Positions 8,574-27,176 of a DNA stretch of 32,802 nt are shown here, in pieces; within the stretch, counting starts at the first letter, position 1, and each line of letters opens with the position of its first letter. Under the pieces are notes generated by a model. The model was not told the DNA's origin and did not search any database. It saw only the letters and a program-made list of their open reading frames with translations. Made by a program: the position numbers and the translations under genes. Source of the DNA: a virus; the IMG/VR virus record IMGVR_UViG_3300027906_000073, positions 1 to 32,802 of that record; one strand, 5' to 3'.

Positions 8574-9616
8574 TTTGCTAAGATGTGTGTCTTACTCTCT
8601 CCAAGTCCCGAGGAAGTTTGTCTGATGAAGACTGCTCTTGCTCTCAACTCTGAAAGGTTGCGCGCACCAGAATAAGATAATCCTGATTTAATATTCCTGT
8701 GTAGATTAGACAATATCTCCTCCACAGAACCCTTGTATGGAATTGTTGTGGAGACCCCCTCCAGAGATCGAGCTTCTCCTCTCCAGGCAATCTGAGCTTC
8801 TGGAGATGCCATTCCTCTATAGATTTTGTAGTGCTTGTTTTCTGTCGAAGAATAAATTTCGCCGGGAGATTCGCGGGTGCCAGCGAGCATTGACCCAAGC
8901 ATAACCATGTCGGCGCCGGCGGCCAAAGACTTCACGACATCGCCCGCGTTTTTGATGCCTCCGTCTGCTATGATAGCTGCGTCGCCGGCGTCGCGACAAT
9001 CGAACACAGATTGCAAAGTAGGTACGCCATGGCCTGTTTGGATTCTGGTTGAACAAATAGAGCCTCCTCCAATTCCTACCCTTACTGCATCAGCGCCCCA
9101 GCTGGACAAATCAACATACCCCTCAGGAGTCGCGACATTGCCAGCTATCAGGGTGATTCCAGAAGAAAAATTATCTTTGGCGGATTTAAGTGCCCTCTCT
9201 ACTAATGAATGATGACCGTGCGCGACATCAATGCATAGAATCTTAACTCCAGAAGATACAAGAGCTCTTGATCTTTGTAAAAAGTCCGGGCCAACACCGA
9301 CCGCGGCTGAAATATTGTTTATGCCCGAAGAAGAAGCCTCTTCAAGCTCTGCTGCAATATTGTGTACTACAGAACACTGCTCTTCTATTGAGTTGTAGCG
9401 ATGCACTATGCCCAACCCACCTGATTTGATCATCGTTATGGCCATTGTGGATTCCGTCACAGTATCCATTGGACTGGAAATCACAGGCAACCTAAAAGAT
9501 CTCTTGCCTGTCGAATCTAAAATGCAGGATATATCTATCTCTTTTCTGCTGTTAATGTTGCTCTTTTGCGGCTTCAAAAGAACGTCATCGAAACACACAG
9601 CCTCTTTAAACATCAT
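8570..9616 (-). CDS. GMP reductase / IMP dehydrogenase family enzyme without CBS domains
   Basis: A TIM-barrel purine nucleotide oxidoreductase of 348 residues from ATG 9616 (AAAGGG upstream; a GTG at 9643 also opens the frame). Motifs are FDDVLLKP near the N-terminus, LPVISSPMDTVTE, AGNVATPEG, GIGGGSICSTRIQTG with catalytic C188 and T190, IADGGIKNAGD, MLGSMLAG and YRGMASPEAQ. The two regulatory CBS domains of standard IMP dehydrogenase are absent. The short active-site lid EARSLEG (E281) aligns with the E-x-R-x-x-E-G lid of GMP reductases, while the C-terminal GLGESKTHIL resembles IMP dehydrogenases. It would interconvert IMP/XMP or GMP/IMP in the cytoplasm. Direction cannot be settled here. 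It sits with dUTPase in a nucleotide-metabolism cluster. Confidence 0.88.
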   Translation of the reverse strand: MMFKEAVCFDDVLLKPQKSNINSRKEIDISCILDSTGKRSFRLPVISSPMDTVTESTMAITMIKSGGLGIVHRYNSIEEQCSVVHNIAAELEEASSSGINNISAAVGVGPDFLQRSRALVSSGVKILCIDVAHGHHSLVERALKSAKDNFSSGITLIAGNVATPEGYVDLSSWGADAVRVGIGGGSICSTRIQTGHGVPTLQSVFDCRDAGDAAIIADGGIKNAGDVVKSLAAGADMVMLGSMLAGTRESPGEIYSSTENKHYKIYRGMASPEAQIAWRGEARSLEGVSTTIPYKGSVEEILSNLHRNIKSGLSYSGARNLSELRARAVFIRQTSSGLGESKTHILAK

Positions 9617-9854
9617 CTTCTGCCCTTTCGTTGGGAACTCCACAACAATCTGTGCAAATTAAATCAATGTTGCTTGACTCTTTGTCAATGTGCCAGTCAT
9701 CGATGTTTTCTCCAGGATGTGGAGAACGGTCGCACATGGAACACTTTACTTGCTTCTTAAAGTTTTTCATCGTCTCCTTAAAGTGTTTCATAAACTGTTT
9801 TCGGGTGGCCACAAATTTCTTTCTTTTTAACTTTCTAGCAAAACTAGCCATCAT
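9606..9854 (-). CDS. Small basic zinc-ribbon-like protein
   Basis: 82 residues. The first 38 are very basic and helical (KLKRKKFVATRKQFMKHFK, then KNFKKQVK), followed by CSMC (C38-C41), a HPGENIDDWHI segment and CTDC near residues 68-71. The paired CxxC motifs suggest one zinc site. Similar small proteins occur in marine phages, but I know no function. ATG ATG at 9854/9851 follows CAGGAGATAA, and the start overlaps the dUTPase stop, so translation is coupled. Confidence 0.65.
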   Translation of the reverse strand: MMASFARKLKRKKFVATRKQFMKHFKETMKNFKKQVKCSMCDRSPHPGENIDDWHIDKESSNIDLICTDCCGVPNERAEDDV

Positions 9855-10969: not shown

Positions 10970-13534
10970 TTATGCTAATAGCTTAAACATTTTTCTCATA
11001 CTAAATGTTGAAAAGCCCCACTGCTGGTTATAATTTAACCTTGCCATATAGGGTCTGTTGAGCTGAACTATGTCCCTTTCAGGGTCAACTCCCCAGCATC
11101 GAATTATTGTCATTTCGTTATTGTCGTCAATCACCTTTACAACATAAAAATTCTTACCGTTCTTTGATTTTTTCAACTTACATTCTCTAGGAATAAACCA
11201 CGTAACACCAAGCTCTGGGTCGAACTCTGAAATGGGTGGCACGTAAAGTTCATCCAACTTTTGTCGCACTCTTGGGGTTACGACTGCGTTTATGGGAAAA
11301 ACACCCGTTAAGTTAACTAAGTGTTCTAGCTTCTCCTCTTCTGAGAAATCTCCCTCTGGTTCGTACTTTTTAATATTTTCAATCAGGTTTTTTTCTTTCC
11401 TTGGGCGGTCTTCGGCGACTGCGGCATAAAAGTGTGCAAGACCAGTAAACCTATCATCAATAAGATCATTCATTGCTTGACCCAGCGTCAAAGCGTGAAT
11501 CGACTTCTTGTTCAGTTTGGAATAAATAATTTCCGGATGAAACAAGAAATCTTCAATCGTATTGAATGGTCTATGTTCAATAATTTGTTCAATGGCTTTG
11601 ATACCCAATCCCTTGATAGATGACAGAGGTTGAATGAGTGTCTTCCCATCCTCACTGATTTCCCAATTGACACCCGAGGTGTTAACATTCAAAGGTTCGA
11701 CACTATACCCCAAGGACTTGGCTGTTGCAATTGCGCGCTCTTTCCGCGTTTCAGGTTCCTTGTCTAGAAAAGCTGCTAGCCACTCCGCAGGATAATAGTT
11801 AAGAAGATAAGCACACTGATAAGACAACACACAATAGGAAACAGCGTGAGACTTATTGAAACCATAGCCTGAAAAGTATTCAAAAGTTTCCCAAAGCTCT
11901 CTGGCTTCATAATCTTTCATCCCTTTCTCAACGCAGCCGCGCTTGAACTTGTCAAAAATCTTGTCTTTCTGAATTTGAATTTCACCAGTACCCTTCTTAG
12001 TAAGAAGTTTTCTGAGCTTGTTGCCCTCATCCAGAGACAGATCCTTGCCTAGTTTGTGAGCCAACATAGCAATCTGCTCCTGGAAAATAAGGAAACCATA
12101 TGTTTCTTCAGTTACTTCGCGGACATGGTTGTTAATATATTCTACGTCCCCTGGGTTTGACTTGGCACCAATGTATTTCCTGTCCACTCCCGCGCCTAAT
12201 GGGCCAGGGCGGTAGATAGAAGTGATAGCTGACAAGTCAATGATGTTGTCTGGCTTCGCATTCTTACAGAACGACTGGGCCCCGGTTTCTGTAAATTGGA
12301 AGATACCGGCCCACTTGCCTTTATGAAAGATGTTTTGCCAAACTTCCTTGTCATCCAAATTAATCTTTTCTGGGTGGAGATTTTTATCGTAGAAATCCTT
12401 AATGTCTGCAAACGTGGGATCCTCCATTCCGTGATGTCGTCTAAGGATGCGATCGATGGCACCTTCGAGCATACGAAGAGAAGCTAGCCCAAGAATATCG
12501 AACTTGATGAAGCCCATCGGTTCAAGGTGTCTCACGTTCATACCCTCAGACCAAGGTGTTTGTCTTACCCCCCCTGAGTTAATAAGCGGCATCCACTGGT
12601 CTAAGTTTTCCCCCACCACAACTCCGCCAGCATGGCGGGAAGCTGATCTAGTCTGGCCGTATAGTTTCTCGATATGAGTTTTAATGTTCGGGTACTTAGT
12701 CAAAAAGGCCTGTAGGGACTCAGAGAACTCCATCAACTCTTCAAACGTAGGAGCATAGACACCGGAAGTAATTCCGTGCTTTGCCTTGGCCCTTGGCGTT
12801 GCTTCGTAAACCATCTTGCTAGTTACATTGTTAACTTCTGTAAATTCGATACCGTAGAACTTTGAGATATCCTTGATAAGAGACCGCAACTGAAGAGTGT
12901 TCCAGTTAGTAATTGGTACAACTGAATTGTCCCCCCATTGATCAATTAAGATCTCTTTCAAAACCATCGGGTCAGACACATCATAGTCAATATCCGGATA
13001 TCCAGATCCACCTTTAGTCAGGAATCTTTCAAATTGAAGCCCGTACTTAATCGGGTCAACTTGCGTGATATTCAAAACATATGCAACGAGTGATCCAGCG
13101 GCCGAGCCGCGGCCGGCGCCGACTAGTTGTCGGTCGACGGCGACGTCTGCAATAGACTTCATAGTTAAAAAGTATTTTGAGAAACCGCGGTTTTCGATGA
13201 CGTTGACCTCGTGTTTCAGGCGGTCTACATACTCTTGCCTACCTTGGAGCCCAAGCGATCTAAGACCTTCGACGCATAATGCGGCCAGCGTCTGGCCGGC
13301 TGTGGACCCCTCAGGTACGACGAAATCTGGCAGGCGCACTGTATTATCTGGCAGGAAGGTCTCTATGCGATCGTGGGCTATCTTGTGTGTCCTGGCGATT
13401 GAATCTTTTACGATCTTGTCATCATATTCTACACCACACTCCTTGGAGTATTTAAGATAAGATTCCCACATTTGGTCTCCGTTCTTGGGATACAACTCAT
13501 AACCTACCTCTTGTAAAGTTCCCTGTCTTTCCAT
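10970..13534 (-). CDS. dnaE: DNA polymerase III alpha-like (family C) polymerase, palm/fingers/C-terminal part
   Basis: 854 residues covering the family C polymerase after the PHP domain. Key motifs: GAGRGSAAGSLVAYVLNITQ, the catalytic PDIDYD (D181, D183) and KFDILGL with the third Asp D346, matching E. coli D401, D403 and D555. Further along are YRPGPLGAG, FNKSHAVSYC, a helix-hairpin-helix (GLGIKAIEQII) and a C-terminal OB-like region. The PHP domain is encoded by the separate upstream ORF in another frame, overlapping by 31 bases. ATG 13534 has no Shine-Dalgarno, so translation may depend on coupling or frameshifting. Catalytic residues look intact, so it should be active and is a plausible replicase beside the family A enzyme. 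Confidence 0.92.
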   Translation of the reverse strand: MERQGTLQEVGYELYPKNGDQMWESYLKYSKECGVEYDDKIVKDSIARTHKIAHDRIETFLPDNTVRLPDFVVPEGSTAGQTLAALCVEGLRSLGLQGRQEYVDRLKHEVNVIENRGFSKYFLTMKSIADVAVDRQLVGAGRGSAAGSLVAYVLNITQVDPIKYGLQFERFLTKGGSGYPDIDYDVSDPMVLKEILIDQWGDNSVVPITNWNTLQLRSLIKDISKFYGIEFTEVNNVTSKMVYEATPRAKAKHGITSGVYAPTFEELMEFSESLQAFLTKYPNIKTHIEKLYGQTRSASRHAGGVVVGENLDQWMPLINSGGVRQTPWSEGMNVRHLEPMGFIKFDILGLASLRMLEGAIDRILRRHHGMEDPTFADIKDFYDKNLHPEKINLDDKEVWQNIFHKGKWAGIFQFTETGAQSFCKNAKPDNIIDLSAITSIYRPGPLGAGVDRKYIGAKSNPGDVEYINNHVREVTEETYGFLIFQEQIAMLAHKLGKDLSLDEGNKLRKLLTKKGTGEIQIQKDKIFDKFKRGCVEKGMKDYEARELWETFEYFSGYGFNKSHAVSYCVLSYQCAYLLNYYPAEWLAAFLDKEPETRKERAIATAKSLGYSVEPLNVNTSGVNWEISEDGKTLIQPLSSIKGLGIKAIEQIIEHRPFNTIEDFLFHPEIIYSKLNKKSIHALTLGQAMNDLIDDRFTGLAHFYAAVAEDRPRKEKNLIENIKKYEPEGDFSEEEKLEHLVNLTGVFPINAVVTPRVRQKLDELYVPPISEFDPELGVTWFIPRECKLKKSKNGKNFYVVKVIDDNNEMTIIRCWGVDPERDIVQLNRPYMARLNYNQQWGFSTFSMRKMFKLLA

Positions 13535-14337
13535 ACATCAGCATTATAATAATGTGAATCTGCAGTTGATATAAGTTCGATGCCGAACTCTTGATGCATT
13601 TGAATAATATATTGATTCAAATCATGTTGTTCTGGGACATTGTTCCACTGCAATTCGCCATACCACCGGTCGCCGAATATTGTCTGCATCTTTTGAGTTG
13701 TCTCTCTCATCGCGTGTAATATTGCGTCCGGACCAACCTCGCGGTTTTCCCAATAATTGCCTGCATAGACACCGCCGAGACAAGCGGATGCTGCTAGCAC
13801 CCCCTCATTGTGTTTTTGAAGCATGTTGTAGTCAACGCGGGGGTATCGATAAAAATTATCGCCCGAATAAGATTCGGATATCATTTTGAATATATTTTGC
13901 AAACCTGTTTGGTTCATAGCTAGCAAAATCAAGTGTCTCCTCCTGTTGAGGACGGACTTGATTTTCTTCTTTGAAGCACCTTCGTTCTCCACAGTTGTAC
14001 CAGATTTATCGGCTTCGTAGTCAGATTTCTTTTTGGCGGCGGCTTTTATGTCATCATATTCTTTCTTCCACTTCTTTACAGAGGGAATAAAATATGCCTC
14101 ACAGCCGAAAATGGGCTTAAATTCTTTACCCTGATTGTGCATTTTTTTTGCGTGCAAAACTTGCCATGCTAACCCATTCATGTTCCCATGATCAGTCAAG
14201 GCTAGAGAATCCATTCCGTTTTCATACGCAAAATCCATGTGTTCTGGTGGATATCCCAGCGCGTCGAAGGGCGATCCGGCGACGGAATGTGCATGCAGCC
14301 CGACAAAGGGAATTTTACTTTTTGTTCTAGATTTCAT
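13504..14337 (-). CDS. PHP-domain (N-terminal) part of DNA polymerase III alpha
   Basis: 277 residues matching the N-terminal PHP domain of bacterial DNA polymerase III alpha: FVGLHAHSVAGSPFDALG (H15, H17), LALTDHGNMNG (D49, H50), IFGCEAYFI, a charged Lys/Asp-rich insertion at about 90-125, HLILLAMNQTG, and STADSHYY near the end, equivalent to TNDVHY. The metal-binding His/Asp residues are present, so a metal-dependent proofreading or structural role is possible. It stops at TAG 13504-13506 just where the polymerase module should continue; that module follows in the -1 frame. The start overlaps the end of the upstream 67-residue gene by 11 bases. Confidence 0.88.
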   Translation of the reverse strand: MKSRTKSKIPFVGLHAHSVAGSPFDALGYPPEHMDFAYENGMDSLALTDHGNMNGLAWQVLHAKKMHNQGKEFKPIFGCEAYFIPSVKKWKKEYDDIKAAAKKKSDYEADKSGTTVENEGASKKKIKSVLNRRRHLILLAMNQTGLQNIFKMISESYSGDNFYRYPRVDYNMLQKHNEGVLAASACLGGVYAGNYWENREVGPDAILHAMRETTQKMQTIFGDRWYGELQWNNVPEQHDLNQYIIQMHQEFGIELISTADSHYYNADVWKDRELYKR

Positions 14338-15377: not shown

Positions 15378-16144
15378 TGAAACACTTCCTTTAAGTTTAG
15401 TTTCAAAAACTTTATATTCTCAGAATCTAAATAAATGTTTCTATCCCTCTCTGTAACTACTCTATTTTTGTGGACAACTTTTGGCTTTCTAAATTTGGGC
15501 GCGCCGCTTTTATAAAGTTTCATAAAATTTCCTTTTACACCAATATACTCCAGATACCTCTTGACGGCGAAGCGTACCATAGAATCTGAATATTCAAAAT
15601 CTTGCAAATTCTCTCTCGTTAATATGGACTGGACAACACAATCTGTTACATACGTCGCTCCGTCTACGCGGTCAGAAGTGTAAAAATGTATTTCCGAAGC
15701 AAATGATTCCAGCTTTTCAATTTTTGGTTTTAAATAGCTATGCTTTGCTCCAAGGTTCGATAGCTCAAAATCGTCATGTACCACATAATCGAACCCCCGG
15801 GGGTCTACTACTTCATTGTCCAGCTCTAGACCAGTTGGGTCAAAAATTTCGCAAAAATTGAAACAGTATTCAAAATTTTCTGATTTTGATGATATTTTTA
15901 TTTTTTCGTTAGTTATTCTTGCTTTTTCGAAATCATGACATGTAATCAGTTTACCCTGCATTGACAACAAGAGTAATGCTCTTGACCAAATGAAATCTAC
16001 CCTGTCTGACCCAAAAATACGGAATGGTGCGGTTTCAAAAAACAAGGGAGGGCGTTTTGCGTTATATAAAAAATAACTGTCGTTCACTATAGAATATAGA
16101 GCAGCGGTGATATCACTACCTACTGTTACCTTATCTAGAAGCAT
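15374..16144 (-). CDS. Hypothetical phage protein
   Basis: 256 residues, not recognised. It begins LDKVTVGSDITAALYSI, has PPLFFETAPFRIFGSDRVDF, and a basic, Lys/Arg-rich C-terminus (KFRKPKVVHKNRVVTERDR). No signal peptide, membrane helix or known catalytic motif is visible. The stop overlaps the GTG start of the nucleotidyltransferase-like gene, so the two may work together. The start lies inside the end of the lipoprotein gene, ten bases of overlap, with TTAGGA just upstream. Confidence 0.6.
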   Translation of the reverse strand: MLLDKVTVGSDITAALYSIVNDSYFLYNAKRPPLFFETAPFRIFGSDRVDFIWSRALLLLSMQGKLITCHDFEKARITNEKIKISSKSENFEYCFNFCEIFDPTGLELDNEVVDPRGFDYVVHDDFELSNLGAKHSYLKPKIEKLESFASEIHFYTSDRVDGATYVTDCVVQSILTRENLQDFEYSDSMVRFAVKRYLEYIGVKGNFMKLYKSGAPKFRKPKVVHKNRVVTERDRNIYLDSENIKFLKLNLKEVFQ

Positions 16145-18231
16145 ATTCCTAATTTATGATCATATGTTCCAAGATAATTTGAAGCATATTTATACACAAT
16201 TTGATGGCTGAACGCTTGCTCTACATCATTTCTAGGCAAACATGCTTCGTCGATAATCGACATCAGATCGTTATACATACTGACTGAATTTGACGTAAGA
16301 TCAAACAAAGACCCGTTTCCAGCCAGAGCGAGATCTTCCCAGTGCCGGGAGACATTCCCGAATCCGCCTCCAGAAGAAAAAGCATATAATTTTAAATTTA
16401 TCGCAGCGCGGGCGGTGGCTTCGACGATCTCTTCCGTGACCGGCCTGATTGGACCTTCAGGATCATTAATGTCCCTAAGGTAGGATTGTTCTTCTTCATC
16501 GCTAAAAATAATTATAATACGCTCTGAATTCGGTCTCCAATTGACGGTGAAATTTTCTTTTTCTGGTATCGAATTAGTGTTTCTCCACCAAGCTGTAGAT
16601 GCAACATCTACAGGAGCATTAGCTGAAATGTTTCTCATTGCTAGATATGCAGCGTCAAGCAACATTTCACTTCCAGTGTCCATGCCTTCGTTCCCCAGAT
16701 CTGCGAAGGCTGCCAAAAATTGATCAAAGGGGGAGATGTCTGAGACCAAAACAAGGGTCTCGTCTTCGTCCTCGATAAATTGTTTTGGCCCTATGATTAG
16801 GCCCCACTGTAGAGGTTCTTCAGCTGCGAAATGAGTCGCGAACCTATTCAAAGCAATCTTAACAGCCTCGATCTGATCATCCATCGAGCCGGACCAATCT
16901 ACAATAAACAAAATATCAGTCTCTCTAATCTCCTCTCCGTAGTCAACAACACCGTCACAATCGTTGTCAGCTCCGTCGCAGATTTCTCGTTGTGGTGTCA
17001 CCTCGCCCGAACAGTAGCCCACTGTGAAGGCGTTGTTCCGGTCGGAACCCCACTCGCCGCGGCGGCAATAGACTTCTCCAGGTGCACAGACGCCGACGAG
17101 TAAAGTCTCTGGCTCTCCTGTATAACATGCTTGCGTCAGATTTTCGTCAATTTCCTGGTCGCAATCTTCATCAAAATTATTACATTCCTCTTGCTGTAAA
17201 ATAATACCAAATCGGTGATCACACTCGGCTTCAGGGTTAGGTGGCAAATAAACGCACAGAGCAGCACAATCAGTCATCCTCATTTCACTGCAATTGGGGT
17301 TTGCACATTCACATGTCTTAAACCCTTGTCCGCAAATCAAAGGAGGTTCAGCACAAGGGATGAGATTGCCCACATCATCTAAAGTACAAAGACAGTCCAA
17401 ACCTTCATCAATCTGGCCGTCGCAATCGTTATCTTCACCATCGCACTCTTCGTCAAGCGGCTGGCGAGCTGTGCAAGATATCCAATTACCAGCTTCGCAA
17501 ATTTCGAGGCCTCGGGCACAGGCAGTTTGGCATTCGCGAGTAAGTTCTTCATCGACTACGCCATCGCAGTCGTTGTCTGCTCCGTCGCAAATGTCTGATG
17601 GTACCGGGCCGCAAACACCGCACACATTCGTCTGGTTTTCGTCGATGATGCCGTCACAGTCGTCGTCCTGGTAGTTACATCGCTCTTCGCTGGGGTCACA
17701 TATCACACACTCTCCATATTCTATATCTCCCTTTCTGCAGAGGATCTCCTGCTCCCCTTCCACACCTTCGATCTCGCATCGGACCGTTATAGTTATGTTG
17801 TGATCTATGCCGGGAGGGCACTCTAAGATTGTCCTACAATCACTTCTAGATAAAACCTCATTCGGTGGACATGTCAAGTCTATTGACCGGTCGCAGATAT
17901 TCAAACTTTCATCGCAAATGTTCATCACGACCTCTGCTGCTGCAACGCCCAATCCGCTTGGTGGACAATACCACATTTGAGTCTGACAACACTGAGGCTC
18001 ACATTCACAAAACTGCTCACTTGAACTATTTACACTCAGACAAGGGTCAATATAAGCATCCTGGATTGTGTGACTCAAGATGTTAATATCGCTTGATGAG
18101 TCAAGAAAAGCGTCTTGACTGAGTATGTTTCGGGATGCGTCATCTAGGCTTTGGTTGTCGATCTGGGATCCATCTGAACAGGCTACTGCAATTGACAACA
18201 GCAGGCTACAGGTTACTAAAAATCGTATCAT
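16135..18231 (-). CDS. Secreted lipoprotein with DNDCDG metal-binding-type repeats and a von Willebrand A domain
   Basis: 698 residues. The N-terminus is a signal peptide (IRFLVTCSLLLSIAVAC) with a lipobox-like AVAC and lipidation Cys at 18, so the protein should be exported and membrane-anchored. Residues about 60-430 are Cys-rich and contain five repeats of the D-x-D-C-D-x-x-x-D-E type (near 188, 218, 267, 353 and 421; for example DNDCDGVVDEE), as in MopE-like putative metal-binding repeats. From about 437 follows a VWA domain with MIDAS residues: DWSGS (D445, S447, S449), a Thr around 519 and FSDEE (D578). Such proteins abound in Myxococcota and Bradymonadota, so it was probably taken from such a host. 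It may alter the host surface, for example in superinfection exclusion or adhesion. The gene lies 17 bases after groES. Confidence 0.85.
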   Translation of the reverse strand: MIRFLVTCSLLLSIAVACSDGSQIDNQSLDDASRNILSQDAFLDSSSDINILSHTIQDAYIDPCLSVNSSSEQFCECEPQCCQTQMWYCPPSGLGVAAAEVVMNICDESLNICDRSIDLTCPPNEVLSRSDCRTILECPPGIDHNITITVRCEIEGVEGEQEILCRKGDIEYGECVICDPSEERCNYQDDDCDGIIDENQTNVCGVCGPVPSDICDGADNDCDGVVDEELTRECQTACARGLEICEAGNWISCTARQPLDEECDGEDNDCDGQIDEGLDCLCTLDDVGNLIPCAEPPLICGQGFKTCECANPNCSEMRMTDCAALCVYLPPNPEAECDHRFGIILQQEECNNFDEDCDQEIDENLTQACYTGEPETLLVGVCAPGEVYCRRGEWGSDRNNAFTVGYCSGEVTPQREICDGADNDCDGVVDYGEEIRETDILFIVDWSGSMDDQIEAVKIALNRFATHFAAEEPLQWGLIIGPKQFIEDEDETLVLVSDISPFDQFLAAFADLGNEGMDTGSEMLLDAAYLAMRNISANAPVDVASTAWWRNTNSIPEKENFTVNWRPNSERIIIIFSDEEEQSYLRDINDPEGPIRPVTEEIVEATARAAINLKLYAFSSGGGFGNVSRHWEDLALAGNGSLFDLTSNSVSMYNDLMSIIDEACLPRNDVEQAFSHQIVYKYASNYLGTYDHKLGICF

Positions 18232-18248: not shown

Positions 18249-18575
18249 CTAAGAATTAATCGACCGAGTATAATGACCCATTACATAATTCTCCAAGATC
18301 ATGTAATGTTTCTTACCCGAGACCATTACTTCCTGCAGCATTGATGAGTCTATAACTATTCTTGATTCATCCGACAAGTTGTACTTTATTTTTCTTATAG
18401 AATCTGAACAGTCGGGAGATATTCTTATTACTGTTGCCTCTATGTAGCGTACCCTTTCAGGGTCATAGTCATCTGGAAGGATGACCCCTGAAGGGGTCTT
18501 TTCTTCCTTGAAATGAGGAATTACCAATAGATGTCTATTCAGTGGTTTTAGGCTCCTTACCTTAGGTGCGGACAT
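18249..18575 (-). CDS. groES: GroES-like co-chaperonin
   Basis: 108 residues with the GroES fold signature: LKPLNRHLLVIPHFKEE at the start, a mobile-loop region KTPSGVILPDD whose hydrophobic GVIL would dock to GroEL, and a C-terminal HYMILENYVMGHY strand replacing the usual LIMSESDILAI. It is longer than bacterial GroES (about 97) and divergent, comparable in spirit to T4 gp31. It would cap the phage GroEL or host GroEL to fold large phage subunits. It is not next to the phage groEL gene. ATG 18575 follows AGTAGG and lies within the end of the GapR-like gene. Confidence 0.85.
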   Translation of the reverse strand: MSAPKVRSLKPLNRHLLVIPHFKEEKTPSGVILPDDYDPERVRYIEATVIRISPDCSDSIRKIKYNLSDESRIVIDSSMLQEVMVSGKKHYMILENYVMGHYTRSINS

Positions 18576-18902: not shown

Positions 18903-20765
18903 TTATACAAATTTTACCTCACATGCACCGCCGGCGCATGCGACTTCTCCCTTGAGATCTGTGTTGTCCTCTTCTTCCTTGACGTAAGTGAGATCAATTT
19001 CAGCTAACGAATCCATCATTGCCTCGTACGTCTCTTTCGAACAGTCTTCAAAAGGGGCTTGCGTGTAACTTCCACCATCATATGGCAAAACAGACAACCC
19101 ATTATAACTATTTCTGTTTTCCCACATCCACTCTCCGACGTCTGCCCATTCTGCTTCTTTAATCGAGATCGTGGCTGATATATTGTGGGTGTTTTGACCT
19201 TTACGGAATCCGGGCTTGACCCATTCATCAGTAACCAGCTTTACGCGCTTCAGAAGCTGCAAAGCGGACTCTGATCTCAAGATCGAACCTTCTGGTGATT
19301 TTTGCGGAATGGATATGACCGCAGTTGTGTGAGGGCTGAAATACTCATCTTCAACCAGCGTAGGGTGATTTTCTAATAAGTATTTATAAATAGGCTCATT
19401 TTTACCGACGCGGAGGCGCCGGATGTAGTAGTTACTATGCCACGCATGAATGCCGGAACTGGTTCCGAGAGTCAAACTGGTGGTTCCAGCAGGCTTAACA
19501 CAAGTTGTTCGAGCAGCAGACTTAATTCCTATCAAATCCGCGACTCGCTGATTCTCAGAAAGAACCTCAGATGCGGCCCTCTTCATATCCAGCTTTAGAA
19601 CCGAGCCGGAGGCAATACCAGTCATGGAGACTCCAATCAATGCGTCTTTTTCTGTCGTTCTTCTCCAGATGTCCCTCAGATAGTGAAAATCTGTGTAACT
19701 AGCTTGTAGTGTCCCTATGAAAGCTGCGCACCTGACTCTCTCGTTAAGGTCTTCTTGTGTTTCCACGTTCGAAACGTTAACTTCCGTTAGATTACAAAAT
19801 TGATATGGTCTCAATCCAATTTCACAGCAAGGGTTTGTTCCCCAGTCTTTATCGTTCGAAAAGTAAAACCCGGGCTCACCGGCACCAGAAGCCTTAACTC
19901 GGTCCCAGAGGCTCATAAAATAATCTTTTTCAATCTTATGCCTTAATAGGACTACAGAATTATTAGCCCTACCTCTTTGCGGATTTGTTTCCCACCAATT
20001 TCCTGTTTTTGCAGCAATCATATCCTCGTCATCGGCCGAGAATAATGAAATAAGAGCAGCCCTGCGAATACCTCCAGCCAGCACCGCGTCAGCGATGTGA
20101 CAGATCATATCGTGCACCTCGATTGGCGCTAGCTTATCTCCATTTTCTTTCAAAGAAAGCATACCCTCTAGCTTAACCAAGCATTCACGAAGGGGCTGGG
20201 GGCCAGGGGCTTTACCACCTGACGTAATGAGGGCTGCGCCTTTCGGACGAATATCTGAATAGTCGAATCTCAGTCTTGAGCCCCCTGAAAAATAAGACCT
20301 TACTAGAGCTTTTACTGCGTCGGCCCAACCCTCGATAGAGTCGTTAACGAGAAACCTACGGGTCCTATTCATATTTGGTCTTGTGATTTCTGGTAGCTTT
20401 TCGACATGGTGCTTTTGAACACTATACCCTACACCGGTACCACCTAGAAGCAGAAACATCGATTCCGAGAAGCACCTCCAATCATCAGCAGGCATAAAGG
20501 CACAATTGAAAATTCTATTAGGGGCAACCTCAATAGGTTTTCCGCCGAATTGCATAGATCTCATTGATGGTAAGACTTTTTTATCATACACCTGCTTATA
20601 TGCTTTTCGAATTTGAAGTTCTAATTCTGGAAACTTCTTAAGGTGCATATTCATGTTTCTGGTCACTAACTCGTCCCACGTTTCTCTTCTGTTTTTATCA
20701 TCTATATACCTTGCATACTTCATGTGTACTGTGATCTCTGATAAGATTTGATTTGACAACTCCAT
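18903..20765 (-). CDS. nrdJ: Class II (adenosylcobalamin-dependent) ribonucleotide reductase
   Basis: 620 residues resembling the monomeric class II reductases. Motifs: LPSMRSMQFGG, NRIFNC with the redox Cys C88, LLLGGTGVGYSVQ, the finger-loop active site NPCCEIG (N311, C313/C314, E315), GVSMTGIASG, PAGTTSLTLGTSSGIH, and a C-terminal redox pair C610-x4-C615 that matches the CxxxxC of the Lactobacillus-type enzyme. It makes deoxynucleotides from ribonucleotides using B12 radical chemistry, without oxygen or an NrdB subunit. It needs cobalamin from the host. A glutaredoxin is encoded about 16 kb away. Its ATG follows GGAGG by eleven bases, one base after the helicase stop. No intein is visible. 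Confidence 0.93.
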   Translation of the reverse strand: MELSNQILSEITVHMKYARYIDDKNRRETWDELVTRNMNMHLKKFPELELQIRKAYKQVYDKKVLPSMRSMQFGGKPIEVAPNRIFNCAFMPADDWRCFSESMFLLLGGTGVGYSVQKHHVEKLPEITRPNMNRTRRFLVNDSIEGWADAVKALVRSYFSGGSRLRFDYSDIRPKGAALITSGGKAPGPQPLRECLVKLEGMLSLKENGDKLAPIEVHDMICHIADAVLAGGIRRAALISLFSADDEDMIAAKTGNWWETNPQRGRANNSVVLLRHKIEKDYFMSLWDRVKASGAGEPGFYFSNDKDWGTNPCCEIGLRPYQFCNLTEVNVSNVETQEDLNERVRCAAFIGTLQASYTDFHYLRDIWRRTTEKDALIGVSMTGIASGSVLKLDMKRAASEVLSENQRVADLIGIKSAARTTCVKPAGTTSLTLGTSSGIHAWHSNYYIRRLRVGKNEPIYKYLLENHPTLVEDEYFSPHTTAVISIPQKSPEGSILRSESALQLLKRVKLVTDEWVKPGFRKGQNTHNISATISIKEAEWADVGEWMWENRNSYNGLSVLPYDGGSYTQAPFEDCSKETYEAMMDSLAEIDLTYVKEEEDNTDLKGEVACAGGACEVKFV

Positions 20766-20766
20766 T

Positions 20767-22143
20767 CTATTTCTTTCCTCCTTCTCTCTTGAAAACTTGA
20801 TACTTCTCTTTTAAGTTTGCTAACCTTTCCGCGGAAGATTTTTGTATTATATCATTCGCGGTTTCTCCCGTCTTCGGCAGAACTTTTATCTTCACGTTGC
20901 TCGTATCCATAAAAATTGGATACACCAATCCATCAGGGCCGTTTCTATTCTTTGCTATAAAGATACGCCCCTGATTCGTATTTTTATCTTCAACAGTCCT
21001 AGAGACTGTAAAAATAAAATCTGCTACAAAACATTTGTTGAATGCCTCGGAGATTGACTCCATTGTGATCACTTCTGCATTCAATCCAGACCTGTTAGTT
21101 TGCGACGCTGTCCAGAGTGGACATTCACAGATTTGAGCTATTCCTCTAAGCTCTTCGTAAATAGTTTCTAGTTGGTGCCTTTTCTCATCTTTTCTGCTAT
21201 TTTCTGGTCTGATTAAGTCTCCATAGTCTACAATGATCATATCTGGGGTGAAATCTCTGCGTTTTAGCTTTTCAACGTGATTTTTGATCGTTTGTATACT
21301 AGCGCTTCGAGTAGGGTACTCTTTTACTATTAGTCTCCCTTCCACTTCCTTAATTTCATCATAAATTTTCTCTTTAAAGACTGTCAGATTTTTGAGCTCA
21401 ACGCCGGTGATGGCAGAATCATATCGATTTGCGACAACAGTATCAGCAAGCTCCAAAGTATAATGGAGAACATTTTTCCCCGCCTTAAGGGCTTGGGCCC
21501 CAAGGTGCACTAAAACCATAGACTTGCCGGCGCCAGTGGGGGCAACTACCACTCCTAATTCGCCTTTTCCCAAACCACCTTTCGAAATATCATCAATATC
21601 TTGCCACCCTGTTGTGACGGGGCCTCTCGCTTTCTTTAAAAAGCGCTCCTCGAAGTCCGCCAAATAATCATACCCAAGGGTATTGTCTGACCCTAGCTTG
21701 AGTGCATTGTCGATTACTTTCGAAACCTCGTCGAAAGATGAAGATTTTATCAACTCAACTGACTTGATTAGAGCTTCTTTTAACTTTTGTTTCTTGCAAA
21801 AATCCAGTGCCGTATCTTTGATAAAATCAGCACTATCCGGCACTTGTCCATTGGCGAGTACGCGGGCATAATATTCTCGTATCCTAACTTTAACCGATTC
21901 TGGTTCTGCATCCAAACCTGTTCGTATGATGGAATGCATAATATTAGATGTAGGGTGGACTCCATATTTCTTCCTGTATTGTTCGATTTTTCCAATGAAG
22001 ACTCTTAAATGCTTGAGTTCTAAAAAATTTAAATCTAAAACCTCAAACATTTGATCTGCGAAGGCCCTGTCATTAAGTATGAGATGACACAAATCTTCTT
22101 GAAAGGTTTTGCCAAATTTAGAAAAACTTTTTTCCTGCTCCAT
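20767..22143 (-). CDS. Replicative DnaB-type DNA helicase
   Basis: 459 residues. An N-terminal helical domain (1-150) is followed by the RecA-like motor: TTGWQDIDDI, Walker A APTGAGKS (201-208), Walker B MIIVDYGDLI, and ASQTNRSG with the Arg-finger region further on. This is the SF4/DnaB layout, similar in size to T4 gp41. It unwinds duplex DNA at the fork as a hexamer. The frame opens at a GTG at 22182 overlapping the exonuclease stop, but ATG 22143 has AAGAGGAAG directly upstream, so I use it. It lies between the exonuclease and nrdJ. No primase gene is recognisable in the window; it may lie elsewhere. Confidence 0.9.
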   Translation of the reverse strand: MEQEKSFSKFGKTFQEDLCHLILNDRAFADQMFEVLDLNFLELKHLRVFIGKIEQYRKKYGVHPTSNIMHSIIRTGLDAEPESVKVRIREYYARVLANGQVPDSADFIKDTALDFCKKQKLKEALIKSVELIKSSSFDEVSKVIDNALKLGSDNTLGYDYLADFEERFLKKARGPVTTGWQDIDDISKGGLGKGELGVVVAPTGAGKSMVLVHLGAQALKAGKNVLHYTLELADTVVANRYDSAITGVELKNLTVFKEKIYDEIKEVEGRLIVKEYPTRSASIQTIKNHVEKLKRRDFTPDMIIVDYGDLIRPENSRKDEKRHQLETIYEELRGIAQICECPLWTASQTNRSGLNAEVITMESISEAFNKCFVADFIFTVSRTVEDKNTNQGRIFIAKNRNGPDGLVYPIFMDTSNVKIKVLPKTGETANDIIQKSSAERLANLKEKYQVFKREGGKK

Positions 22144-22178
22144 TAAACTTCCTCTTGTTTTAACAATACTAACACATT

Positions 22179-23141
22179 TCACTCAGAAAAGGAAGATATT
22201 ATATGATTAAATCTTTGTTCCAAATCGGTAGTAGAGACAGTTAGGACCCCATCTTGGAGCATCAACTTTCTTATTTCTGTTTGATTGTAGTGTGGTTTAT
22301 AATCTTCAAACGTACTGTCAATTCCTTGTTTCGCCTGTATTGAGAGCATTGGCGATGATAGTTGCATGATGTCATAATTGTTTTTTATTAAGTTCTGATT
22401 CTCAACAATGTTGGAGAAGACTTTTTGCTTGTTTTCTACTTTTTCACACTCTTTTAAGACATCAGACAGGTAATGTATTTTCTCCTGTTTCAAAAAAGAA
22501 AATCTCTTTGACACAGTGCTTAGGCCGACGTTTGGGACCCCTGGTAAATTGTCTGAAGAATCTCCTACAATGGCTCTTGCAAGAGCGAAATTGACAGGGT
22601 GAATACCAAATTTCTCTACTATGTCGTTTTTATTCAAGTATTCCTTTTGGATTGGTCTGTGTAAAATAGTTTTGTCGTCAAGAAGTTGAATGAAATCTTT
22701 ATCCGCCGAGACTATGACTTTTTGCCAAGCCGAAAACATCGGGCTAGCTTTTACATATGAAATAACATCATCTGCTTCTACTAATGGTTCCATGAATTGA
22801 ATAACTGGGGTTTGGTTAAAATATTCTATTACTCTCATCTGTTGCCAAACTTTATTGTTTATTACATCGCTTTCGTCCATCCCGACTTGTGACCAATTGG
22901 TTCTAGGCGGTTTGCGGCCGCCTTTGTAGTTTTTGTTCATCGAGCGGCGCTTTTTGGAACCACCCTTACCATCCCACACTAAAACCAACAAGTCTGGCTT
23001 CACCTCTCTCGTAAGCTTGTTCAGGATGTTGATAAAAGTCCTCATACCGCCGATGGGGGATCCGTTTGGGTTTTTACTAGGGTCTACTATATATCCACGA
23101 ATAAACTGGTTATACGCGTCCACTATCATCATTCTCTTCAT
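22179..23141 (-). CDS. 5'-3' exonuclease (FEN/RNase H-type)
   Basis: 320 residues with the flap-endonuclease/T4 RNase H-type metal site: MIVDAYN (D8), VWDGKGG (D57), EADDVISY (E122, D124, D125), VSADKDF (D147, D149) and GDSSDNLPGVPNVG (D194, D197). The last is the helix-hairpin-helix DNA-binding motif. It probably removes RNA primers or 5' flaps during lagging-strand maturation, complementing the family A polymerase, which has no such domain. The start ATG is preceded by GGAGAAAAT and lies just after the poly-U tract of the terminator at 23153-23180, so its expression likely needs read-through. Confidence 0.92.
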   Translation of the reverse strand: MKRMMIVDAYNQFIRGYIVDPSKNPNGSPIGGMRTFINILNKLTREVKPDLLVLVWDGKGGSKKRRSMNKNYKGGRKPPRTNWSQVGMDESDVINNKVWQQMRVIEYFNQTPVIQFMEPLVEADDVISYVKASPMFSAWQKVIVSADKDFIQLLDDKTILHRPIQKEYLNKNDIVEKFGIHPVNFALARAIVGDSSDNLPGVPNVGLSTVSKRFSFLKQEKIHYLSDVLKECEKVENKQKVFSNIVENQNLIKNNYDIMQLSSPMLSIQAKQGIDSTFEDYKPHYNQTEIRKLMLQDGVLTVSTTDLEQRFNHIISSFSE

Positions 23142-23191: not shown

Positions 23192-24325
23192 CTACTCTGT
23201 CGGTGGACTCTCGTCCACACCGTAGAAGTCGTCTGCTTTGCCCTCTCTATTCTTGAATTTCATAATAACATCTTCTTCAATAATAGTCAAGACACTTTCT
23301 CTAAATTTTTCACTCTCAAGTTTATTGACCCACTGTTTACGCTGGAACTTCTCCTTAGAACCATCATTGTGGATTATCGTAAACCATGCCCCGGACTGCT
23401 CAAGCCTTTCAGAAATCTGGATTGCATCAAACCAACTTTCCTCATCTTGGACGCCGACGGCTTCATCACCCCACAGGATTTTGAAGTTGCAGGTTCGGCC
23501 GTGGGTCCCGAAACGAGACTTCTCCAGCTTTACCTTTACTTCAGATCCGATACGGAAGCCATTGTCGTCAACGATGAAGCTAGCTTTGGCTCTTCTTGCT
23601 GTGAGCCACACACGAAGCGAATAAGCATAAATCATAGCTTTTCCGCCGGGTGTCGTGTATGGTTCGGTCATAGCCTGTGCTGGCGTTCTTGCTCCCAGGT
23701 TCGTCTTCAATTGATTGAGGACTAGAAAGGTGGCGTTCGCGTCCGCGATAGGGATGGTTAATTTGGACATTCCCTTAGCCAGAATTCTCGGCTTTACAGC
23801 CATGGACGACTGAGGATTGAAATCACCTTCAACGTCAGAAATCGAGGGAGTGAGAGCCAGCGAATCCCAAATAAAAAGCCACTTGTTGCCAGTGGCTAAC
23901 AATTCTTCGATGGTCTCCAAGACAAACTCAACAGATGCTGCCTGGACATACATTAATCTATCTAAGTCGCAGCCGGCGCGTTCCATAAATGATGGATCAA
24001 TAGCGGACTCTGAATCAAAATAAACTACATCAATTCCCATCTTTTGAGCGTTGCCAGCGATTTGGGCAGCTAGAAACGATTTACCAGTCCCAGGAAGACC
24101 TGCGATCTCGGAGATTTTGCCCACTGGGATTCCTGCGTGTCTTCCCTTGCATATGATGGCATCAAGCCATCGGGATCCGGTGGGGATCCACTCCTTCACT
24201 TCTGTTGGGTTATTGTCTTGGAGCGAATGGGCAACTTCTCTTCCGGCTTTTTTGTTGATAATGCCGCGGATGGCGGATATATCAAGGGCTCCTTTTTTTA
24301 GTTTCGTAACTTTGCTTTTGGCCAC
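23192..24325 (-). CDS. recA: RecA/UvsX-type recombinase
   Basis: 377 residues. The N-terminus (ISAIRGIINKKAGREV) is followed by IPTGSRWLDAIICKGRHAGIPVGK, Walker A GLPGTGKS (76-83), FDSESAIDP, Walker B LFIWDSLALTP, a loop 1/2 region ARTPAQAMTEPYTTPGG, and an acidic C-terminus. The shape is closer to RecA than to the shorter UvsX, though it is divergent. It promotes homologous strand exchange for recombination-dependent replication and repair. The start is GTG 24325, with TAGGTG upstream and only seven bases after the ssb stop, so it is cotranscribed with ssb. A strong terminator follows it. Confidence 0.93.
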   Translation of the reverse strand: MAKSKVTKLKKGALDISAIRGIINKKAGREVAHSLQDNNPTEVKEWIPTGSRWLDAIICKGRHAGIPVGKISEIAGLPGTGKSFLAAQIAGNAQKMGIDVVYFDSESAIDPSFMERAGCDLDRLMYVQAASVEFVLETIEELLATGNKWLFIWDSLALTPSISDVEGDFNPQSSMAVKPRILAKGMSKLTIPIADANATFLVLNQLKTNLGARTPAQAMTEPYTTPGGKAMIYAYSLRVWLTARRAKASFIVDDNGFRIGSEVKVKLEKSRFGTHGRTCNFKILWGDEAVGVQDEESWFDAIQISERLEQSGAWFTIIHNDGSKEKFQRKQWVNKLESEKFRESVLTIIEEDVIMKFKNREGKADDFYGVDESPPTE

Positions 24326-24332
24326 GGTGCAC

Positions 24333-25085
24333 CTACTGATTCAACAAATCAGAGAAAGCAGCTTCTACAGAGTCTGTTTCTGTAGTGCCCTTTGAGGTGC
24401 CGAATCTTTCAAGCTCAACATTGCCAGAATCGTTTGACAAGTGTTGGTCCATGATTGATTGCACTTCTTCTGTTGTCTTTCTTTCAAAGATTTCATCAAA
24501 ATTTGGAATAGTCTCTAACAGTTCAGCGCAGCGTTCGTCGCCACCGACAGCGTCATCGCAAAGAACAGTCTTTCGAGGTCGTGGTCGGATATCAGTGCGC
24601 GGGAAACTTGCACCTGGAAGCTTTCCGTACATCAATTTAAGATCGTTTCCTGTTTCGGGATCTGTTACGTCTCCGTAGTCTGGGTCCAGCACGATTGTCA
24701 GGAGTTTTTCGTAGGCCATTTTGCCATAACCCCAGACTCGGATTCCCTGATCTTCTTCTCCCCTCACTAGAACCGGGGAGAAAAATCTTTGCTTCGCAAA
24801 CATTTCCTTTGCTTGTTTCTTGCTCTCCTCGGTGCCTTCGTTCCACAACTTGTTTGCAAAGTTGCACGCTGGGCAGTCGTCCCCGAAATTTCTCTTCGGG
24901 CACAAGAAAGACTGTCCTCCGATTCCGTAATGAAAAAATTTCTCTTTAAACGGGTCTCCATCGGGCGTGGAAACAATACGAATATTGCTTTCTCCGTCTT
25001 CTGGTCTCCAGAAGTTCTTTTTTCCGTCTCCTTTTCCGTTAAGTTTATCTAACTTCGCTTTCATAGCGTCTAAATTAAGTGCCAT
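24333..25085 (-). CDS. Single-stranded DNA-binding protein, T4 gp32-like
   Basis: 250 residues with the gp32 layout: an N-terminal helical arm (LDAMKAKLDKLNG), an OB-fold core, a zinc-like cluster H52...C62...CPAC (C71, C74), and an acidic, Ser/Thr-rich C-terminal tail (SKGTTETDSVEAAFSDLL) that in gp32 recruits replication partners. It coats single-stranded DNA at forks and recombination sites. The gene has its own promoter, a 5' stem-loop leader and a strong TAGGAGGT before ATG 25085, and is followed by recA. High expression is expected. Confidence 0.85.
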   Translation of the reverse strand: MALNLDAMKAKLDKLNGKGDGKKNFWRPEDGESNIRIVSTPDGDPFKEKFFHYGIGGQSFLCPKRNFGDDCPACNFANKLWNEGTEESKKQAKEMFAKQRFFSPVLVRGEEDQGIRVWGYGKMAYEKLLTIVLDPDYGDVTDPETGNDLKLMYGKLPGASFPRTDIRPRPRKTVLCDDAVGGDERCAELLETIPNFDEIFERKTTEEVQSIMDQHLSNDSGNVELERFGTSKGTTETDSVEAAFSDLLNQ

Positions 25086-25167: not shown

Positions 25168-25196
25168 ATAATATCAGGTTGTTTCTTCGTTGTCAA
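25168..25196 (-). promoter_or_regulatory. Sigma70-type promoter for ssb-recA
   Basis: Minus strand TTGACA (25196-25191), 17 bases, TATTAT (25173-25168). The -35 is inside the end of the FtsZ-like gene, whose TGA stop immediately precedes the -10. Confidence 0.82.
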
Positions 25197-26040
25197 CAAT
25201 TATTTGTTGAATTTTTGGCGAGAAGTATTCTACGTAAATATAATCTTCTTCGTATTGAGTTGGGTAGATCCCAAATGAAACCTTAGTTTCATTAGTGATT
25301 CTTGATTTTACTTTGTTGGTGATTGTTCTAAACAAATTTTCCTGCGTCTTTAACTTTTCTTCTTTGATACCATAATAGTATACCACTTCCACCTCTTGAT
25401 TGAAAGGAAAAAATAACAAATCATCTTTTTCCAATGAACTTAGCCCGATAGTAGTGATTCGACACGACTCCTTTGTCCGCTTGAATGTTGATGTGACCGG
25501 GCTTGAATTTTTAAAAACGTCTAACATATAATAGGTACTAGTAAATACGTGATTTATTTGGTCATAGTAATCAAACACATTTGTTGGGCCCGCAAACTCC
25601 TCCAATCGGAGGTTAGAAACTAAGCAAATTTTTTCAAATAGACCACTGCGAGCATAATTTTGCAGAATGCCGCGGCAGGCCCTTTCTTGAAGCGTCTTCT
25701 CTTCTGAGAGAACTTCAATTTCTGGTGTGAAATACACAACATCCATTTTCACACCTCTCAAGTGCAATGAGTGTAATGCTCGCAGAACAAGACCTGATGA
25801 GTTAGAAGCTCCGCATAAAAATACAGTACAACTTTTATCAATCGTATTTAACCACGTATATAACTTCTCTGTATCCATAGATTCATATTCTTCAGGACCA
25901 GGAAGAGTGGGTATTTTAAAATTATATTTTGTAGTTTTTTTGTTTTCTGTCGATATAGTATATGGCTGATAAACTTTGAAATTTGATAGCTGCTTTACAA
26001 TGTTGGATCCGGCGGTTCCAATTCCTAAAATGTTTTTCAA
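25174..26040 (-). CDS. Divergent FtsZ/tubulin-superfamily-like protein
   Basis: 288 residues. The order of elements follows FtsZ: an N-terminal ILGIGTAGSNIVKQL (like FtsZ IGVGGAGSNAV), VFLCGASNSSGLVLRAL at 73-89 where FtsZ has its GGGTGTG loop, FTPEI...LQERACRGI...FEKICLVSNLRLEEF at about 104-149 (like TKPF...A..GI..L..D..IVIPN..LL), VFDYYDQINHVFTSTY, ITTIGLSS, and KVSFGIYPTQYEEDYIYVEYF near the end, like the FtsZ IIFGA...D.V.VTVIATG strand pair. The Gly-rich loop is degraded and the catalytic NxDxxD loop is not visible, so GTPase activity is doubtful. Start is TTG 26040 with AAAGGAG eight bases upstream, overlapping the polymerase stop. A phage-spindle-like role is only a hypothesis. Confidence 0.5.
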   Translation of the reverse strand: MKNILGIGTAGSNIVKQLSNFKVYQPYTISTENKKTTKYNFKIPTLPGPEEYESMDTEKLYTWLNTIDKSCTVFLCGASNSSGLVLRALHSLHLRGVKMDVVYFTPEIEVLSEEKTLQERACRGILQNYARSGLFEKICLVSNLRLEEFAGPTNVFDYYDQINHVFTSTYYMLDVFKNSSPVTSTFKRTKESCRITTIGLSSLEKDDLLFFPFNQEVEVVYYYGIKEEKLKTQENLFRTITNKVKSRITNETKVSFGIYPTQYEEDYIYVEYFSPKIQQIIVDNEETT

Positions 26041-27176
26041 ATTTTCATCTCCTTTAGGTTTCCGAAGTTTTTACCAATCTTACAAGTACTGATGAATTTT
26101 CCCCAGCGAGTTTGCTCGAATTGATCCTTTATGTCTCTCAACATTATAGCATCTTCTTTCGACATGTCAAGTACAATTGAGTCATGAAGTGTAAAAGCTA
26201 CTGTTGTCTTTCTATCTTTAAGCATTTTTTGTATCTTATAGGCGTTTTCAACAACTTGATCAGAAGTTGTCGATTGAAGTAAATAATTTTGCGCTTTTCT
26301 CTCTTCTACTTGCAGAACTCGGCCGAATGGGGTTGTAAGTGTTTTTTTTTCAGAACAGTAAAAATCTCGAAAAATTTGCCTCGAAAAAATTTTGTCCAGT
26401 CGACTTTTTGGAGCTGAAATATTATATAACCAGGAAAATACTTTGGTTTTAGTTTCCTCCCTGGAGTACTCTCTTGAGAAAATGTTTTCAGACACCCACT
26501 CGTGTATGTCTTTTTTTGGCTGTTCTTGATCACACAGCGCCAAGAGCATTCTTATTTCCGCCGCGTTCAAGTCGATTTCGACAAACGCGTCATTTTGGGG
26601 TTCCAAGAGGCGTCTTTGTTCTTTTTTTAGTGTCAAGATAGGTACTGATCTTTTTTCTGTTGTGAACCTTCCAGTTGAAGAGCCAAAGATGTTATATATA
26701 ACTCTTTCTTTTTTCCCCTTAAAGGTGATATCTTGTCTGGCTATGTTAGAAGCTAAAACATGGGCCTTGTGTAAGATTTCATAACTCTTATCTTTATCAA
26801 TTGACAACTTTTGCAAATTTCTCATAGCGCTTTGCCTCTCTGAGAGCCAACCTAAAAGTTGATGCTCCGGCACTACGTCGAATAGACAACTTCCCTCTAT
26901 GTCTATCTTTGCCGCTAGCGCGGCGCGTCTTTGGGCATTTATTTTTTCTTGACATCCTTGATATTTTTCAGGATTTGTAGAAAATTCAACCAAAGACGCG
27001 CCGCGCGAAGCGACAAACAAGTATTTATATTCTTCATCTTCTAGCAGCGGAGAGTGTGTCCAAGCTACAGAGAAATCTTTAAAAAATTCCCTTGTCGGTT
27101 CTTTGATCAAGCGAGAGCCATCAAAAACTCCTTCACATCTCTGTTGAATGTCCAGTGTCTGAATTATCTTCTTCAT
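26037..27176 (-). CDS. Small family A (Pol I-like) DNA polymerase without exonuclease domains
   Basis: 379 residues, essentially only the polymerase domain. Motifs: TGRF (168-171), motif A VEIDLNAAEIRML with catalytic D202, an O helix with R239, K243, F247 and Y251 at exactly the Taq spacing R659/K663/F667/Y671, and motif C TLHDSIVLD (H331, D332). The 3'-5' and 5'-3' exonuclease domains are missing; a separate 5'-3' exonuclease is encoded about 3 kb downstream. It is much shorter than typical Pol I (about 600 residues for the Klenow part), so thumb and exonuclease regions are reduced. It may be a gap-filling or lesion polymerase beside the family C enzyme, or a replicase. ATG 27176 lies inside the upstream gene's end, 44 bases of overlap. 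Confidence 0.85.
   Translation of the reverse strand: MKKIIQTLDIQQRCEGVFDGSRLIKEPTREFFKDFSVAWTHSPLLEDEEYKYLFVASRGASLVEFSTNPEKYQGCQEKINAQRRAALAAKIDIEGSCLFDVVPEHQLLGWLSERQSAMRNLQKLSIDKDKSYEILHKAHVLASNIARQDITFKGKKERVIYNIFGSSTGRFTTEKRSVPILTLKKEQRRLLEPQNDAFVEIDLNAAEIRMLLALCDQEQPKKDIHEWVSENIFSREYSREETKTKVFSWLYNISAPKSRLDKIFSRQIFRDFYCSEKKTLTTPFGRVLQVEERKAQNYLLQSTTSDQVVENAYKIQKMLKDRKTTVAFTLHDSIVLDMSKEDAIMLRDIKDQFEQTRWGKFISTCKIGKNFGNLKEMKI

Follow-up and report, generated by a model that had tools for sequence, protein, structure and literature searches.

A predicted tubulin/FtsZ-fold protein that lacks the T7 motif, encoded with a small family A DNA polymerase in a lineage of mostly marine phages

Work on phage tubulins has so far concerned GTP-driven filaments, encoded by jumbo phages or plasmid-like elements. 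TubZ of Bacillus plasmids (4ei7, 2xka; type III partition) is found on extrachromosomal elements together with a centromere and the gene of its DNA-binding partner TubR, and it has the T7 motif as well as a long C-terminal helix and tail. PhuZ (phiKZ gp39, 201phi2-1) is a phage-encoded protein of the tubulin fold, and the protofilament of phiKZ PhuZ requires its tail and the T7-containing interface (PMC3678025). For the FtsZ-like families that Makarova and Koonin described in 2010, an intact GGGTG(S/T)G signature was the means of recognition (PMC2875224); both they and Misato are divergent within the FtsZ-tubulin superfamily, and functions other than division have been proposed for them. A search of the open-access literature returned descriptions of TubZ, of PhuZ and of divergent FtsZ-like families from cells and did not find the family reported here, a large marine phage family of tubulin-fold proteins that has apparently not been described before.

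The window, meaning the whole 32,802-nt stretch of viral DNA that was analysed (IMG/VR record IMGVR_UViG_3300027906_000073), contains on its minus strand a real gene for a 288-residue protein with a TTG start (25174-26040). The open reading frame is more than a chance occurrence, because hundreds of contigs encode a conserved form of the protein, dN/dS is low in close family pairs and the gene order is kept. The gene and its neighbours are given below, with counts over 119 related loci that are limited by contig ends.

27133-28356, minus strand: 407-residue protein upstream of the polymerase, function not assigned (match in 87 of 119 loci)
26037-27176, minus strand: small family A DNA polymerase, 379 residues (Pfam E 6.8e-10 and PHROG; the Asp residues of motifs A and C are present)
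26049-26055, minus strand: Shine-Dalgarno sequence AAAGGAG, 8 nt from the TTG start of the tubulin-fold gene (sequence)
26037-26040, minus strand: TTGA, a 4-nt gene overlap in which the start codon of the tubulin-fold gene overlaps the polymerase stop (TGA) (sequence)
25174-26040, minus strand: predicted tubulin/FtsZ-fold protein, 288 residues (AlphaFold2 model, Foldseek matches to FtsZ and TubZ, family conservation)
24333-25085, minus strand: gp32-type SSB (Pfam E 1.8e-11, PHROG; in 113 of 119 loci)
23192-24325, minus strand: UvsX/RecA-type recombinase (Pfam and PHROG; in 95 of 119 loci)
22179-23141, minus strand: 5'-3' exonuclease of the FEN type (Pfam and PHROG; in 79 of 119 loci)
20767-22182, minus strand: probable DnaB-type helicase (position and translation; in the place of the annotated helicases of Mel-JY01 and immuto)

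An earlier, sequence-only reading of this DNA had placed the gene between a family A polymerase and ssb, behind a strong Shine-Dalgarno sequence, and both the Pfam matches of the two neighbours and the AAAGGAG element agree with it. Residues D202 and D332 of the polymerase are invariant in 28 relatives. The identical 4-nt overlap of start and stop codons is seen in close relatives of the window locus, and it probably couples translation of the polymerase and the tubulin-fold gene. The family is under strong purifying selection, with dN/dS values of about 0.06-0.08 that come from other, close family pairs with unsaturated synonymous sites, as these sites are saturated between the window protein and its closest kin. 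The isoelectric point is 5.8 for the window protein and also 5.8 for the family mean, values that do not hint at DNA binding.

Single-sequence searches with the window protein in Pfam, PHROGs and the PDB produced no convincing relative, and tblastn of 50,697 phage records found no member of the family. The number of loci in IMG/VR rose from 20 to 35 and then to at least 595 as the query alignment was widened, the last figure being one of pattern-matched, partly redundant loci. An alignment of 68 diverse members was used, and motifs were counted over 147 distinct proteins. The contigs that carry the gene are up to 190 kb long, and one relative found through the polymerase lies on a contig of 204 kb. 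The nominal match of the single-sequence PDB search, a designed pentatricopeptide protein (E 0.0008), was rejected, its score being a sum of sub-threshold repeats. Profile searches of the PDB with two family alignments found no relative. An outward search from the two longest branches of the family gave no intermediates towards canonical FtsZ. A match in the genome of a WOR-3 bacterium (L121, CP070664.1) was rejected as evidence of a host: the phage block is flanked by runs of N in a MAG scaffold, and the piece in this chromosome probably comes from a phage contig that was wrongly scaffolded.

The linkage to the polymerase is seen from both sides. There is at least 600 nt of sequence upstream of the tubulin-fold gene in 101 of the 119 loci; the polymerase was found in 105 loci, and in 100 it is on the same strand and no more than 400 nt upstream. 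With the polymerase as the query, 79 new loci were found, and the tubulin-fold gene is present in all 76 that have at least 900 nt downstream. The polymerase-seeded loci with this gene reach down to about 32-33% polymerase identity, in a sample that is biased towards polymerases like the seed.

Immediate adjacency to the polymerase gene was not kept as a family-wide property, as a MazG-like gene intervenes in one clade. This gene (KLVRDxIPxII, at about 5630-6000) separates the polymerase and the tubulin-fold gene in L071, L077, L076, L101, L109 and L119.

Two more distant relatives are in culture, Microcystis phage Mel-JY01 and Flavobacterium phage immuto. Their blocks are ordered in the same way, but the polymerase and SSB are separated by other small genes, and no member of the family is detectable in either genome. 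The tubulin-fold gene is thus not needed for such modules generally; it is fixed in one large, mostly marine lineage of the replication module, not in all. Three distant kin, cultured or uncultured, that are without the tubulin-fold gene encode a protein of 129-151 residues with the motif HRKKxxNTxYTINxLN between the polymerase and SSB (L154:5675-6064, L155:5374-5763, L156:1346-1801), and this protein possibly fills the slot.

The structure of the window protein was predicted with AlphaFold2 without templates, from an alignment of 35 family members (pLDDT 89.8, pTM 0.89). In a Foldseek search of the PDB, the best match of this model is FtsZ (1fsz, E 8.9e-13, about 310-320 columns), and the best 50 matches listed are all FtsZ or TubZ. 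The alignments of the 288-residue model have TMq values of 0.60-0.70 over about 305-345 columns and span both domains. A second model was obtained for a distant member (L071), which is 35% identical to the window protein, from its own alignment (pLDDT 93.7, pTM 0.91). Its best match is TubZ (E 1e-12), followed by FtsZ, and tubulin appears once among the matches listed. The two alignments have members in common, and the models are therefore not fully independent. The N-terminal nucleotide domain, the central helix H7 and the C-terminal domain in the tubulin topology are present in both. On these models the window protein almost certainly has the tubulin/FtsZ fold, in agreement with the sequence-only reading, which had proposed an FtsZ/tubulin-like fold and suggested this prediction and fold search as the check.

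Among viral structures, the window model best matches A0A6J5RW92, a 452-residue protein of an uncultured Caudovirales phage that carries the annotation 'FtsZ Cell division GTPase' (TMq 0.75), a comparison made by structure alone. The next matches are phage entries called cell division protein and tubulin. Models of the PhuZ type are among the BFVD matches, with TM values of about 0.48-0.49, below those for FtsZ.

There is much less to be seen in sequence profiles. The profile of the 68 members aligned by hhalign with 24 FtsZ sequences at E 0.0016, in a co-linear path from T1 through T4 and T6 to H7. The score for real FtsZ is 32.4, compared to at most 23.0 for column-shuffled FtsZ and up to 35.1 for shuffles of 25-column blocks. 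As the block shuffles score as high as real FtsZ, the signal is local, and it probably comes mostly from the T1 loop. This alignment was used for the mapping of residues only, since the block-shuffled decoys equal it. The best E values to PF00091 (0.0085-0.019) and TIGR00065 (0.03) belong to a few members and are weak and not significant, and the curated cut-offs of these two models are reached by no family member. The matches of single members in Pfam are mostly to generic Rossmann families, with TrkA_N among the commonest.

Because the profile similarity to FtsZ does not exceed that of block-shuffled decoys, the case for homology to tubulin/FtsZ is a structural one, based on the predicted models and the conservation of the pocket and not on profile statistics. 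The sequence-only reading had named a lack of tubulin-family profile hits as an argument against itself. By sequence this is nearly what was found, the matches being weak and non-significant, and it is the structure search that supports the assignment.

The elements of the putative nucleotide site, and the two regions that are specific to the family or altered in it, are as follows.

26002-26025, minus strand: T1 loop GIGTAGSN, residues 6-13 (G8 in 145 of 147 members, with two gaps; aligns with FtsZ GxGGxGxN)
25873-25902, minus strand: PGPEEYESMD at the T3 position, residues 47-56 (E50 in 141 and Y52 in 139 of 147)
25792-25812, minus strand: T4 loop GASNSSG instead of GGGTGTG, residues 77-83 (G77 in 144 of 147)
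25642-25665, minus strand: LQNYARSG, residues 126-133, family-specific patch at the end of helix H5 (Q127 and R131 in 147 of 147, S132 in 145 of 147)
25612-25614, minus strand: N143, the guanine-contact Asn of T6 by the FtsZ alignment (kept in 144 of 147; aligned with an invariant FtsZ Asn)
25510-25578, minus strand: core helix H7, residues 155-177, carrying Y159 and N163 at base-contact positions (N163 in 145 of 147)
25459-25509, minus strand: H7-S7 linker, residues 178-194, the site of T7 and H8 in FtsZ (no NxDxxD; helix absent by DSSP of both models)

The T1 loop and the altered T4 loop are as the sequence-only reading had described them. The GGGTG[ST]G signature is present in none of the 147 members, which sets them apart from the 2010 FtsZ-like families with their intact GGGTG(S/T)G (PMC2875224). 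The third position of T4 is occupied by Gly in 79 of the 147 members and by Ser in 58. A GxGx[IV]SG-like loop, with Gly at this position, is found in over half of the broader family, and GASxSSG is another degenerate form. In a maximum-likelihood tree of the 68 members, the Gly and Ser labels are strongly clustered, and several changes are required. The hallmark of the family, PGPEEYESMD, is placed by hhalign on the T3 region of FtsZ.

The base of the nucleotide would be contacted by N143, Y159 and N163, a mapping that depends on the hhalign alignment. Residue 159 is aromatic or His (Y, F, H or W) in 143 of the 147 members. The positions of Y159 and N163 are those of the Tyr/Asn pair of tubulin at the H7 base contact. 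The degenerate glycine loop does not imply that the nucleotide site is lost, as the guanine-contact positions are nearly invariant. As judged from these residues, a guanine-nucleotide site is likely retained, with putative GTP binding.

The opposite is seen on the face that carries out hydrolysis in FtsZ. The motif NxDxx[DE] between H7 and S7 is found in none of the 147 members, compared to 22 of 24 FtsZ controls at the equivalent place, and the sequence-only reading was correct that the catalytic NxDxxD is not visible in the window protein. Helices H8 and H9 are absent from both models. Both end in strand S10 and a short helix, with a tail of about 10 residues; the C-terminal helix H11 and a long tail are absent. 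Hydrolysis activated by a neighbouring subunit is improbable, because the T7 motif and H8/H9 are absent, and the sequences make it very likely that canonical GTP hydrolysis has been lost. The description 'possibly GTPase-dead' in the sequence-only reading is supported as far as canonical hydrolysis is concerned, while putative nucleotide binding is probably kept.

The window protein and FtsZ (M. jannaschii 1fsz, S. aureus 3vo8) thus have in common the two-domain fold, the central H7, the T1 loop, the T6 Asn and the H7 base-contact positions. In comparison with FtsZ, the window protein has no GGGTGTG, no T7 NxDxxD, no H8/H9 and no C-terminal FtsZ tail; the identity is about 10-15% in structural alignments, and the protein is viral and its gene adjoins that of a polymerase. 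TubZ differs in having T7 and the long C-terminal helix and tail, which members of the family do not have, and in its partition partner gene; no such partner was noticed next to the gene here, whose neighbours are the polymerase and SSB. The family is also unlike PhuZ, as had been proposed from the sequence: an hhalign comparison with phiKZ PhuZ (gp39) gave a probability of 0.2% and E 0.27, with no sequence kinship, the T7 catalytic motif is missing as are H11 and the long acidic tail, and the gene context differs. We regard the family as a degenerate phage branch of the tubulin/FtsZ fold that is new, as is the genetic context of its genes.

Taken as a whole, the protein is read here as a nucleotide-binding, non-hydrolysing tubulin-fold switch or scaffold of the phage replication module, a reading that we judge to have about an even chance. 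It is put forward because the base site appears to be kept, the hydrolysis face is lost, the constraint is strong, the PEEYE and LQxYARS patches are invariant and the gene is coupled to that of the polymerase. The two-domain protein would keep guanine nucleotide binding in its N-terminal domain. With the T7 motif and H8/H9 missing, protofilaments that are driven by hydrolysis, like those of FtsZ or PhuZ, would not be expected, and we infer that dynamic polymers are not formed. The protein would be translated directly after the small family A polymerase and coupled to it. Together with the polymerase-SSB-UvsX-FEN machinery, it may then serve as a nucleotide-dependent switch or as a non-dynamic scaffold on which the replication of phage DNA is organised. 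A role in replication is favoured by the polymerase linkage. Gene order suggests a function shared with the replication neighbours, although phage operons also carry unrelated genes. Two observations weigh against the reading: the protein is absent from the cultured phages that share this block order, and a MazG-like gene lies between it and the polymerase in one clade.

Unconventional filaments, which would position or segregate phage DNA without T7-driven hydrolysis and would resemble PhuZ or TubZ without membership in either group, are an unlikely alternative. Filament proteins have this fold, the invariant PEEYE and LQxYARS patches could be assembly interfaces, and the adjoining genes handle DNA. 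However, T7, H8, H9, H11 and the long tail are all absent, and the protofilament of the phiKZ protein needs its tail and the T7-containing interface (PMC3678025).

Somewhat less likely still is an inhibitor of host FtsZ, one of the roles suggested in the sequence-only reading, which would dock on the bottom of the FtsZ subunit and cap or poison the filaments of the Z-ring, such that division stops during infection. Phages encode FtsZ inhibitors, and a protein whose closest fold is FtsZ, with the nucleotide ('top') face kept and the hydrolysis face (T7/H8) lost, has features that would suit this role. To our knowledge, however, the FtsZ inhibitors described from phages come from early genes that are small and variable, and the tubulin-fold gene is a fixed part of the replication block.

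A last alternative is a binding protein or an enzyme, for example one of nucleotide metabolism, whose Rossmann domain is tubulin-like without any kinship or functional likeness to tubulin. This would explain why single sequences most often match TrkA_N and other Rossmann families in Pfam and why real FtsZ scores no higher in hhalign than block-shuffled decoys. It is very improbable, given that both confident models align with FtsZ/TubZ through H7 and the C-terminal domain, that every top match listed is FtsZ, TubZ or tubulin, and that the T6 Asn and the aromatic/Asn pair of H7 suit the recognition of guanine.

The switch or scaffold reading has a further, more tentative form, to which we give somewhat less than an even chance: the protein could be the first tubulin-fold core component of a phage replication machine that is not a motor. 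In abundant uncultured marine phages, it would bind GTP without hydrolysis and serve the co-translated polymerase as a switch or scaffold. The family is common in marine viral contigs, with the predicted fold and the guanine-contact residues kept, the hydrolysis face dropped and the gene locked to a DNA polymerase. If the reading is true, a cytoskeletal fold has been recruited for viral DNA replication, and the capabilities of a tubulin without T7 become directly testable.

Other genes on the minus strand of the window may be mentioned. DNA polymerase III alpha (10970-14337) is found in two overlapping frames, with the PHP domain at 13504-14337 and the remainder at 10970-13534, and is either a split gene or the product of a sequencing frameshift. 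Two DNA polymerases, one of the DnaE type and the small one of family A, thus seem to be encoded by this phage. Host-like genes recognised by Pfam are those for GroEL (3035-4603), ClpP (6549-7235), IMP dehydrogenase (8570-9643), GroES (18249-18575) and a B12-dependent ribonucleotide reductase (18903-20765). In addition, a 698-residue protein (16135-18231) has a signal-like N-terminus and repeats of the CDGxDNDCDGxxDE type (Pfam Cu-binding_MopE), which is odd for a phage replication region.
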